Assembly: GCA_028278345.1 (NCBI GenBank) | Contig: JANQEL010000290.1 | Location: 37,098 to 101,097 of the forward strand | Reading direction: 5' to 3' | DNA length: 64,000 bases | From: Myxococcota bacterium | Lineage (GTDB): Bacteria; Myxococcota_A; UBA9160; UBA4427 | In this document: piece after piece, positions 49,806 to 53,994 of the stretch | Numbering within the stretch: the stretch's first letter is position 1 | Layout: every line of letters begins with the position of its first letter | Program-made: the position numbers and the translations under genes | Notes under the pieces: model-generated | Database searches by the model: none | What the model was told of the DNA's origin: nothing | Seen by the model: only the letters and a program-made list of their open reading frames with translations

Positions 49806-50288
49806 CTAACCCTCGCCGCCCTCGTGAATCATCTCGGCGAGGTAGGCGGCCTTGCCGACTTCTTCGACGAGGTGTAGTTGCGCCTCGTGCCAGTCGACCG
49901 ACTCCTCTTCCTCCTTGAGGATGTTCTCGAGGAGTTCGCGGGTGCCATTGTCCGCGGCTTCGCGGCAGAGCGCGATCGCCTTGTTGAGGCGCTTCACGGC
50001 TTCGAGTTCCAGATCGAGATCCAGCTTGTGCTGTTCGACGGGGTCTTCACCGACGAGCACGGGCGAGAGCCGCTGCATGTTCGGCGTGCCATCGAGGAAG
50101 AGGATGCGGTCGATCACATCGTCCGCGTGCTTCATCTCTTCGATCGACTCCTCGCGCTTCTTGTGAGAGAGCCGGTGATAACCCCAATTGGCGCACATGC
50201 GGTGGTGGATGAAGTACTGGTTGATCGCCGTAAGCTCCGACGTCAGGACTTCATTGAGCGCCTCGATGACCCGGTCATCACCCTTCAT
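49806..50288 (-). CDS. bfr: Bacterioferritin
   Basis: MKGDDRVIEALNEVLTSELTAINQYFIHHRMCANWGYHRLSHKKREESIEEMKHADDVIDRILFLDGTPNMQRL. Confidence 0.96.
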   Translation of the reverse strand: MKGDDRVIEALNEVLTSELTAINQYFIHHRMCANWGYHRLSHKKREESIEEMKHADDVIDRILFLDGTPNMQRLSPVLVGEDPVEQHKLDLDLELEAVKRLNKAIALCREAADNGTRELLENILKEEEESVDWHEAQLHLVEEVGKAAYLAEMIHEGGEG

Positions 50289-50293
50289 GGTCT

Positions 50294-50323
50294 TCTCCGC
50301 TGAATGGAAGGTTCGAGCGGAGA
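50294..50323 (-). promoter_or_regulatory. 5'-UTR hairpin sequestering the bfr Shine-Dalgarno sequence
   Basis: mRNA sense: UCUCCGCU-C-GAA-CCUUCCA-UUC-AGCGGAGA-AGACC-AUG. 8-bp perfect stem, single bulged C, 3-bp upper stem, 7-nt loop; SD-like GGAGA lies in the 3' arm. Confidence 0.5.
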
Positions 50324-50374
50324 GTAACCATGTCGAGCGCGAGAATCAGTGGCTGTCGCTCAGCGACGCGGGTA

Positions 50375-50593
50375 TCAGGAGTCGTTGGAACCCGATGTCA
50401 TATTCACTGCGTTGTTCGCAGCGTGTCGGCGAACGCTCTCGCCGTCGATCATGGACTCGATCGCCGGGCGGCATCCGCCACAGCGACCGCCTGCACCGCA
50501 GGCCTGTCGCACGTCGTCGGTCGTGGCGGCACCGTTGCGGATCGCGTTGCGAACCGCGCGGTCGGTGGCGCCTGTGCAGTGACACATCAACAC
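50375..50593 (-). CDS. bfd: Bacterioferritin-associated ferredoxin ([2Fe-2S] BFD-like)
   Basis: MLMCHCTGATDRAVRNAIRNGAATTDDVRQACGAGGRCGGCRPAIESMI. Confidence 0.92.
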   Translation of the reverse strand: MLMCHCTGATDRAVRNAIRNGAATTDDVRQACGAGGRCGGCRPAIESMIDGESVRRHAANNAVNMTSGSNDS

Positions 50594-50648
50594 GAAAATG
50601 ACCTCGTCTGGAGTCCTCGAGCAAGCCCTATTCTGGCATTCCTAAAAC

Positions 50649-50667
50649 GAAAATCAATGTCGATTTC
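50649..50667. promoter_or_regulatory. Fur-box-like sequence upstream of bfd-bfr
   Basis: GAAAATCAATGTCGATTTC; 11/19 matches to GATAATGATAATCATTATC by hand; closely similar to the site at 53962-53980. Confidence 0.45.
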
Positions 50668-50780
50668 ATCGGATTCGACGAAAGCGAGCTTGAGATCGGA
50701 GGTGCCTGGCCTTCTCGAAGCCTTTGAAATTAAAGGGTTTATCGGAATACCTGCCGCCCCGTGGGCCTGCAGGCCGCCAG

Positions 50781-50951
50781 CTACTTCGTGAGGATCAGCC
50801 GGTCGTTCTTGGTCAGCCGGAGCGTGTAGACCTCACCGTCCAGGACGAGTCGCGCCATGCGCTTGTCCCCGAGGAACTCGCGCGCGTCCAGCACGCGGAC
50901 GGCCTCCTCCAGTTCGTTCGGCGCCGGCGGAATCGAGTGCTCACACGCCAT
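50781..50951 (-). CDS. hemP: HemP-family hemin uptake small protein (56 aa)
   Basis: Translated by hand from the reverse strand: MACEHSIPPAPNELEEAVRVLDAREFLGDKRMARLVLDGEVYTLRLTKNDRLILTK. C-terminal YTLRLTKNDRLILTK matches the HemP signature. Below the ORF track length cutoff. Confidence 0.85.
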   Translation of the reverse strand: MACEHSIPPAPNELEEAVRVLDAREFLGDKRMARLVLDGEVYTLRLTKNDRLILTK

Positions 50952-51663
50952 CGATGCTCCTCCTCGGTCGGATTTCGAACAGCGCCAGGGATCCCAGCGC
51001 CAGCCCGAGCACGATGAGCCCGGCTGTCTGCAAACCGGGGACCTCGACGACCTCGACGGTTTCGATCACGAGGTTCGCCTTGAGCGATGCCGGTTCGGAA
51101 GCCTCGAAACTGTGCATCCCGATCACGCGCTCGGTCACGCTGGTGAGCACGAGACCGTTGTTCGGTGATGTGCCGGTCGTCCAGTCGGTCACGAGATCGG
51201 TGACGTCGTAGATCAGGGGGCCGAAGCCCGTGATGTTCGAAACGGTTCCGATCACCGGTCCGATGGTCGGACGATTCAGCCACGTGAGCGTCGTCTGATC
51301 CCAGCTCTGCGTCACCTGGTGCAGATCGACCGCTCCCGGGTCGGTGCTCGTGTCTCCGAACCCCGTGAAGTCGAATGCATAGGTGATGAAGAAGGTCGCG
51401 CTGTCGACGATGTGGCCCGAGGGAATCGTGCCGGGCGGCAGATCGAAGCGAATGTAGGTCTCGAATGCATGTTGGAGCATGTTCTCGTCTTCGGCGTCGA
51501 ACGCGTACAACGTCGGATTGTTGTATCGCGCAAGCGTCGGCACGAACGAGTACGGCGCCGTGTCTTCGCCGCTCTGGATCGTGATCGTGTCGGCCTGCGC
51601 GGTCGGTACCGCGAAAGCCGCGACAGCCAGCGTCGAGCAGAAGAACGATCGAAAGCGATTCAT
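50941..51663 (-). CDS. Secreted DNRLRE-like domain protein with PEP-CTERM-like sorting tail
   Basis: Signal peptide MNRFRSFFCSTLAVAAFAVPTAQA; DNRLRE-type ETYIRFDLPPGTIPSGHIVDSATFFI...SWDQTTLTWLNRPTIG...DVTDLVTDW; C-terminus VPGLQTAGLIVLGLALGSLALFEIRPRR. Confidence 0.7.
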   Translation of the reverse strand: MNRFRSFFCSTLAVAAFAVPTAQADTITIQSGEDTAPYSFVPTLARYNNPTLYAFDAEDENMLQHAFETYIRFDLPPGTIPSGHIVDSATFFITYAFDFTGFGDTSTDPGAVDLHQVTQSWDQTTLTWLNRPTIGPVIGTVSNITGFGPLIYDVTDLVTDWTTGTSPNNGLVLTSVTERVIGMHSFEASEPASLKANLVIETVEVVEVPGLQTAGLIVLGLALGSLALFEIRPRRSIDGV

Positions 51664-51700
51664 GAGATGGGACCCTCCAGAAGCATCCTGAACGACGGAG

Positions 51701-53863
51701 TCAGAAGAACTCACCGCGCGCACCGACGAAGAACGTTCGGCCGCGCACGATGTAGGAATCGACGAAGCGGTTGTTCGTGACGTTGTAGACGTCCGCGAAG
51801 AAGGCGAAGCGATCGAGGATCGGCTGCATGATCCGCAGATCGAGGTTGACCGACGGATCCGAGCGCTCCCCGGTCGAGAAGCTGACGAGGCCGGTCCCGC
51901 TGCCTTCCTTGAGCGCGGAACTGCGCCATTGCGTTCGTGCGGTGAAGACGGTTTCGGTGATGGGGGCCGTCAGGGTCAAGCGCGTATTCACCACATGGTC
52001 GGGCTCGTTGGGCAGCTCCTCGAACAGCACGTTCGAGTCGCGCACCTTCGTCTGCATGCGCGTATACGAGAGGTCGAAGTCGATGTTCTCGTGGAGACTG
52101 AGGCCGACGCGAGCCTCGATCCCGCGTGTTCGCACCTTGTCGAGGTTGTCCTTGCGCAGGACGTTGCTGGGGGTCCCGCTCAGCTGTTCGTCGCACCACT
52201 CGAGCTGACCGAGGTTGCAGAGGAAGTCGTTCGGCGGGATCGGCACGACGTCGATCAGCAGCGTTTCGCCCTGATACGCCGAGCGGATGTGCTCGTCGAT
52301 GTCGTTGTGGAAACCGACGACCGAGAGCGTCACGCCCGGGTAGGGATCGACCTCGATCCCGACCCGGAACGCATCCGTCGTTTCTCGCCGAAGATCCTCG
52401 TTGCCGGCGAGGAAGTAGCCGCCACCGTTCTGGGGGGTCTCGGGTTGGAAGAGATCGCGCAGGCTCGGATAGCGGTAGTTGCGCCCCCATGAGAAGCGGA
52501 GGCGAAGCTCTTCCTGGCCACCCCACTGAAGGGGCGTGGCGAGTAGCGCAACCTGGGGAATCAGCTTGGCCGAGTAGCGGCTGTGGAGTTGGGCCCGCAC
52601 ACCGTATTCGGCCTGGAACCGTTCGCCGAGCCAGGTCTCCCCGATGAAGTAGAAGCCACCGAGTTCGTCGTTCTCATCCACCTTGCGCGTGCCGACCTGA
52701 GCGGCGATCTCGGCCTCGAGTTCGGACTCGTCGAGTTCGAGGGTATGCCGGCGAAGATCGGCTCCGACGGTCAGTGTGTTGGTCGTGATACCGAGGTCGA
52801 CATCGTGTTCGCCGCGCAGTTCGAGCTTGATTTCGTCGTCGACCAGCTCGAACTCACGACCGACCGTCGACTCCGTGGAGGAGCGGTAGTAGTTGACCGC
52901 CAGCGTCGCGAAGGTGTCGGGAGAGAGCTGCCAATCGGTGCCGACGCCTCCGAACCACCGCTCATTCTTGCGAAGCAGGTTGTTCTCGTCGGAGCCGAAG
53001 TCTTCGTCGCGCTTGCGCCAACCGAAACGCGCATCGAGGGTCAGCGCGCCGAATGGGATCCACGACGAGCGTCCATAGAGATCGATCGACTCGCGCAGGG
53101 AGTCTTCGTCGGGAGGTACGAAGACGTAGCCTTCGCGATCGCTCGGAGCGTCATAGCCGCCGAGCTTGTCGTAATCGATGGCGAGCACCGCACCTCGACC
53201 GTCGGCTCCGCCGCCGAGAGCGCCCTTGGCTTGTTCTGCCTTGTCGGCTCCGCCACCGAACTCGACGTTCAACGTCGGTTCGTACAGGGGAACCGGCTTC
53301 GAAATCAGGTTGACGACGCCACCGGCGGCTTCGGGGCCGTAGCGGAGCCCCTGTGGGCCGCGGAGGATCTCGACACGGTCGACGTTCGCGAGCGGGAAGT
53401 CGCGCAGATCGTTCACGCCACCGATCTCGCCGGCATAGCGCTGGCCATCGACCAGGATCGCGGTGTAGGTCGGAGGCAGTCCTTCGATCGAGACCGCGGC
53501 GACCTCGCCCTGGATGCGGTTCTGGACGCGGATCCCCGGCAGGTTTCGAACCAACCCCGCGGCGTCCACGGCCGGAAGCGTGTCGATCTCTTCGCGGCTG
53601 ATGACTTCGGTCTCGACGGCGACGGGCTCAAGACCGGGGCTCGAAGTCCGCTCACCTTCGATGCGCATGACCTCGATCGAGGGGTCGGGCACGGGCGGCT
53701 CGGAGGTTTCGCTTGCATCGATCTCGGGGGATTCGTCTTCCGCCCAGGCAGCGGATGGAGATGACGCCACGGGTGCGAGCAGTGCCGCAGCGAGCGCGCC
53801 GCACGCGATCGAACGATGGAGAGATGTCTCGAATAGCTGCCGGAACAAGGCCTCGAACCCCAC
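51701..53863 (-). CDS. TonB-dependent outer-membrane receptor
   Basis: Plug VETEVISREEIDTLPAVDAAGLVRNLPGIRVQNRIQGEVAAVSIEGLPPTYTAILVDGQRYAG...VEILRGPQGLRYGPEAAGGVVNLISK; C-terminal beta-barrel ending in GARGEFF. Confidence 0.95.
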   Translation of the reverse strand: MGFEALFRQLFETSLHRSIACGALAAALLAPVASSPSAAWAEDESPEIDASETSEPPVPDPSIEVMRIEGERTSSPGLEPVAVETEVISREEIDTLPAVDAAGLVRNLPGIRVQNRIQGEVAAVSIEGLPPTYTAILVDGQRYAGEIGGVNDLRDFPLANVDRVEILRGPQGLRYGPEAAGGVVNLISKPVPLYEPTLNVEFGGGADKAEQAKGALGGGADGRGAVLAIDYDKLGGYDAPSDREGYVFVPPDEDSLRESIDLYGRSSWIPFGALTLDARFGWRKRDEDFGSDENNLLRKNERWFGGVGTDWQLSPDTFATLAVNYYRSSTESTVGREFELVDDEIKLELRGEHDVDLGITTNTLTVGADLRRHTLELDESELEAEIAAQVGTRKVDENDELGGFYFIGETWLGERFQAEYGVRAQLHSRYSAKLIPQVALLATPLQWGGQEELRLRFSWGRNYRYPSLRDLFQPETPQNGGGYFLAGNEDLRRETTDAFRVGIEVDPYPGVTLSVVGFHNDIDEHIRSAYQGETLLIDVVPIPPNDFLCNLGQLEWCDEQLSGTPSNVLRKDNLDKVRTRGIEARVGLSLHENIDFDLSYTRMQTKVRDSNVLFEELPNEPDHVVNTRLTLTAPITETVFTARTQWRSSALKEGSGTGLVSFSTGERSDPSVNLDLRIMQPILDRFAFFADVYNVTNNRFVDSYIVRGRTFFVGARGEFF

Positions 53864-53961
53864 CGACCTCCCACCCTGGGTGGGGGCCGACTTGAAATGC
53901 GCGGGGTCGATCCGGCTGGCTTCGGGCTTGCTCGATCTGATGCGCGCGGCCGCACCTTAAT

Positions 53962-53980
53962 GAAGTTGACATTCGTTTTC
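53962..53980. promoter_or_regulatory. Fur-box-like sequence in divergent TonB receptor / heme importer intergenic region
   Basis: GAAGTTGACATTCGTTTTC (reverse complement GAAAACGAATGTCAACTTC); 11/19 to Fur consensus by hand; closely similar to site 50649-50667. Confidence 0.45.
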
Positions 53981-53994
53981 AATATCTCTAGGAT
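53966..53994 (+). promoter_or_regulatory. Candidate sigma70 promoter for the heme importer operon
   Basis: TTGACA (53966-53971), 17-bp spacer, TAGGAT (53989-53994), overlapping the Fur-like box. Confidence 0.5.

Follow-up and report, generated by a model that had tools for sequence, protein, structure and literature searches.

In the 64,000-nt stretch of Myxococcota DNA analysed here (the window), the messenger of the bacterioferritin gene, bfr, was predicted to fold back on its own start site. This raised the question of whether a hairpin sets the amount of bacterioferritin that is translated, and how such a hairpin came to lie there. The sequence, the predicted fold, the rank of bfr among the gene starts of its genome, the absence of the hairpin from relatives and the iron-type operator were all computed. 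The genome is a MAG that was 97% complete, with an estimated contamination of 5.9%.

Predicted fold at the start of bfr

The bfr gene (49806-50288, minus strand) encodes a protein of 160 aa with a Ferritin domain (PF00210, E 3.8e-38). The bfd gene for the [2Fe-2S] bacterioferritin-associated ferredoxin (50375-50593, minus strand; Fer2_BFD, PF04324, E 9.9e-16) lies on the same strand, with its stop codon 86 nt ahead of the bfr ATG. The start of bfr was firm, since the alignment of the relatives began at the same codons, M[KQR]G[DN]. Both genes follow an iron/haem uptake cluster on the minus strand (50781-53863), in which a TonB-dependent receptor, a CBM96-domain protein and hemP are encoded. 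In one genus mate (G003), the PpiD-like gene was adjoined by ABC-transporter-like permease genes and not by the iron cluster. The cluster was thus absent at that place.

Folding predictions indicated that the hairpin at the bfr start is real and bigger than first described. The preliminary description had reported a perfect 8-bp stem over GGAGA, and this was confirmed. The 5' arm of the core stem (UCUCCGCU, 50316-50323, minus strand; predicted pair probabilities of 0.95-1.0) paired with the 3' arm (AGCGGAGA, 50294-50301), which holds the bfr Shine-Dalgarno (SD) sequence GGAG(A) at 50294-50298. The apical part (50302-50315) also agreed with that description in sequence and in fold, with a bulged C at 50315, a 3-bp upper stem GAA/UUC and a 7-nt loop CCUUCCA at 50305-50311. 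Two further stems had been missed. A 7-bp outer stem was predicted between CAUGGUU (50326-50332; pair probabilities of 0.89-1.0) and GACCAUG (50286-50292), in which the ATG of a short leader ORF is paired to the bfr ATG (50286-50288, unpaired probability of about 0.001). A basal stem of 5 bp was predicted between 50335-50339 and 50279-50283. The SD and start codon of bfr were predicted to be about 99% paired, so the proposed burial of the ribosome-binding site (RBS) held as a prediction and was stronger than claimed.

The fold was also more stable than its composition would give. The 71-nt region reached -31.2 kcal/mol compared to -18.7 ± 3.0 kcal/mol for dinucleotide shuffles (z -4.2), and none of 200 shuffles was as stable. 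For the 47-nt hairpin by itself, the values were -22.2 and -7.5 ± 2.3 kcal/mol (z -6.4). Identical hairpin pairing was predicted in 71, 151, 261 and 633 nt of context. An RNA thermometer was rejected because the structure was too stable, with the SD predicted to be at least 97% paired up to 65 °C. An intrinsic terminator was rejected as well, as the hairpin stem is followed by AAGGGUGAUGACC and the U-run is absent.

The bfr start was then ranked against 592 gene starts with an SD, which were called in 1.04 Mb of sampled stretches of the same genome. The joint accessibility of SD and start codon was predicted to be lowest for bfr. A perfect stem of at least 8 bp over the SD was found at 4 of the 592 starts; one of these was bfr itself and one was an opposite-strand ORF call on the bfr palindrome. 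Smaller sets, of 272 to 290 starts, agreed with this result. The bfr hairpin exceeds the expectation from composition and is extreme for the genome. By our estimate, a window of about 60 genes would by luck contain a 1-in-600 start about one time in ten.

Conservation of the hairpin and the iron-type operator

The preliminary description had named conservation of the stem in orthologues beforehand as the point on which its proposal could fall, and no orthologue shared it. The bfr gene was not found in the three genus mates. The stem was absent from all 69 other bfr leaders, taken from the class and from other genomes, whose proteins were 46 to 81% identical. In a DNA search of 379 phylum genomes with the leader and the gene start, 143 gave matches, none of which ran across the hairpin; nearly all were limited to the bfr gene and its SD side. 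Plasmid records gave only weak matches, inside the bfr coding region. A search of the genome for further copies, as expected of a regulon element, found none with up to 3 mismatches. Nevertheless, all orthologues were distant (81% protein identity at best), which leaves room for a recent lineage-specific element.

The bfr leaders of the relatives showed no excess burial of the SD. The mean unpaired value was 0.45 compared to 0.47 in shuffled leaders (Wilcoxon p 0.29), and burial was no greater than that for other genes of the window's genome. Strong burial was seen in single relatives, L067 and L041, and the group as a whole showed no difference from shuffles or other genes. In L067 (68% identity), an unrelated stem of 8 perfect base pairs, CTCCTTCG/CGAAGGAG, which encloses a GC-rich inner stem, buried the bfr SD. 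This stem was either convergent or due to chance, and it indicated that strong start hairpins turn up now and then.

What was conserved was a palindrome in the DNA. A palindromic motif model with the consensus tGAAATCGAaatTCGATTTCa was learned from the bfr upstream regions of relatives, with the window excluded. Within the 64-kb window, its two top-scoring sites preceded bfd and the TonB-dependent receptor gene. The best match, at 50648-50668 before bfd, was the iron-type palindromic operator TGAAATCGACATTGATTTTCG, and the second copy (53961-53981) was located about 100 nt upstream of the receptor gene. Only three sites above 23 bits were found in 1.04 Mb of the genome, the third of which (L181, 6210-6230) precedes a gene for imelysin (Peptidase_M75), a family that is often linked with the uptake of iron. 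The genome encodes two Fur-family matches, and the form and company of the 21-bp palindrome point to Fur as its putative ligand. The palindrome looks like the mark of an iron regulon of this bacterial class, covering bfd, the TonB receptor, imelysin and, in many class relatives, bfr. Judged from these sites, the conserved iron control that was found would be at the DNA level, through the palindrome that precedes both bfd and the TonB receptor gene. The operator is the sturdier result on iron regulation for the class.

The placement of the operator was different in the window. In many relatives, the motif preceded the bfr start by about 60-125 nt, and where these had bfd, it lay downstream of that gene. 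However, in the window the strong site was upstream of bfd, and only a weak match of 18.4 bits was found before bfr (50386-50406), inside the 3' end of bfd and 97 nt before the bfr ATG. It is possibly a relic or a weak second operator. With this arrangement, bfr is probably served by read-through from bfd, so that the gene on which the hairpin would act comes second in the unit.

Origin of the inverted repeat and competing explanations

Both arms of the repeat read AGCGGAGA-N(3-4)-CCATG on opposite strands. The 5' arm on the opposite strand is AGCGGAGAGTAACCATG and the 3' arm is AGCGGAGAAGACCATG, each consisting of an SD, a spacer and an ATG, and the gene-calling script took the opposite strand of the 5' arm as a start with an SD. 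The spacers of the two arms were AG and GTA. As the two arms nearly repeat a single SD-ATG unit, inverted relative to each other, the sequence suggests that the likeliest origin was a local inverted copy of the bfr SD-ATG unit, a quasi-palindrome formed by a template switch. Template-switch mutation is described as making or perfecting quasi-palindromes, which are imperfect inverted repeats (PMC7202029). As CATG is its own reverse complement, any inverted copy made from the bfr start also has to contain an ATG.

The hairpin was absent from the relatives and is therefore either a recent private control element or the leftover of a local DNA copying error. We favoured, tentatively and a little short of even confidence, a lineage-specific hairpin that acts in cis to reduce the translation of bfr, within a bfd-bfr unit under the control of an iron box. 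A neutral accident was considered nearly as likely. In that account, a template switch left a neutral or mildly harmful quasi-palindrome with no regulatory role, which persists because it is recent and tolerated. It may well be correct, and we leaned against it only with hesitation. It was consistent with the near-identical inverted arms, which form a unit of 16-17 nt with SD, spacer and ATG, with a hairpin private to one genome, and with relatives that gave no sign of selection for SD burial; one start among 592 also has to be the extreme. However, tight burial of the RBS should cost expression and be lost unless tolerated, and the difference between the spacers meant that the event was not brand new or was imprecise.

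The other explanations give the repeat a partner or another level of action. The preliminary description had noted a 17-codon ORF running through the hairpin, and this ORF was recovered (MVTLRSNLPFSGEDHEG, 50278-50331, minus strand), with its stop just inside bfr and its frame open back to 50397. Ribosomes translating it might open the stem and so make the bfr site available, or start again at the bfr ATG. The geometry was suitable for such coupling, as the ORF spans both arms and ends a few nucleotides into bfr, and there is an intergenic precedent in Salmonella, where translation of mgtQ frees mgtB (PMC8092293). However, no SD precedes the ORF, its own ATG was predicted to be paired in the outer stem, and it was not conserved in relatives. 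The ATG on the 5' arm also follows automatically from pairing with the self-complementary CATG of bfr, and with the SD missing, the ORF was weak as independent evidence. We regard coupling as improbable. No slippery site was seen by eye for a frameshift from bfd into the leader frame, which is +1 relative to bfd. The repeat might also act as DNA, as an operator for a dimeric regulator and not as an RNA hairpin. It is an intergenic 8-bp inverted repeat with a 14-bp spacer, which would suit this role; yet the conserved operator motif was another palindrome, at other positions, the repeat does not recur in the genome within 3 mismatches, and overlap with an SD and a start codon would be an unusual place for an operator. 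This makes the DNA reading very unlikely. An element resembling the iron-responsive element (IRE), with aconitase or another RNA-binding iron sensor as its ligand, was scarcely credible. A bulged C does lie beneath the upper stem in a ferritin-family mRNA, and aconitases are reported on some bacterial mRNAs (PMC4150767, PMC7527780). However, the loop was wrong, the upper stem had 3 bp compared to 5 bp, Rfam gave no match and the element was in no relative.

Proposed action on bfr and likeness to known systems

In the favoured reading, the bfd-bfr intergenic hairpin would keep the SD and start codon of bfr closed. As both are paired, ribosome binding at equilibrium should be poor. Formation of the fold in the cell, a shared bfd-bfr transcript and lowered translation of bfr are all inferred. 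Compared with bfd, bfr would thus be poorly translated, unless something opens the stem or ribosomes load ahead of folding, as they may while the 3' arm is still unfolded. Candidate openers of the stem are ribosomes on the leader ORF, an RNA-binding protein and a ribonuclease. Iron control would be mainly transcriptional, via the Fur-type palindromic operator that precedes bfd, with the hairpin setting or modulating the yield of the second gene. A more specific version, in which a one-step inverted copy of the SD-ATG unit made a new translational lock on bfr that uncouples bacterioferritin from ferredoxin and opens in response to a signal that depends on iron or on ribosomes, seemed rather unlikely. 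If the hairpin is functional, a translational switch would have arisen from the gene's own start region in one mutational step, and the cell could set the ratio of bacterioferritin to the iron-releasing ferredoxin. If it is non-functional, it is a caution that a very strong start-site hairpin can occur without any trace of conservation.

The locus was compared with known systems. The mgtQ case resembles the bfr leader in that a short intergenic ORF overlaps a stem-loop covering the RBS of the next gene, in a metal-homeostasis operon (PMC8092293). However, mgtQ is conserved and experimentally tested, with alternative stem-loops and ribosome-destabilising codons (PMC8092293), whereas the bfr leader showed an ORF without an SD, a single predicted structure and no conservation.

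The likeness to the IRE of eukaryotic ferritin mRNA, suggested in the preliminary description, did not survive comparison. In both, the coding sequence of a ferritin-family protein is preceded by a stem that carries a bulged C. However, the IRE family has a 6-nt CAGUGN apical loop, whereas the bfr hairpin has the loop CCUUCCA and an upper stem of 3 bp instead of 5 bp, and it includes the SD and the ATG themselves. A search of the hairpin against Rfam gave no IRE or other relevant match even at E up to 5, and the chance matches were far under the cut-offs.

An sRNA or an RNA-binding protein had also been proposed as a partner. The sRNA was weakly placed, as Hfq was not found in the 97% complete genome. 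For a protein, one CsrA is encoded, but the sole GGA of the hairpin is in the stem and not in the loop. In E. coli, CsrA acts on the 5' UTRs of bfr, ftnB and dps (PMC6686035). The locus is like that system if bacterioferritin is controlled post-transcriptionally at its 5' UTR; however, control of bfr in E. coli works via CsrA binding (PMC6686035), and the hairpin here lacks a loop GGA.

Two observations were made on other bacterioferritin genes. The same genome carries a second, divergent bacterioferritin-like gene (L019, G000:C271:74168-74638), which was 49% identical and without the hairpin. The closest bfr (L048, contig C52 of G038; 81% identity) belonged to a genome from another order-level branch of the class. 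As this lies outside the window's own family, its placement suggests horizontal transfer or a misbinned contig.
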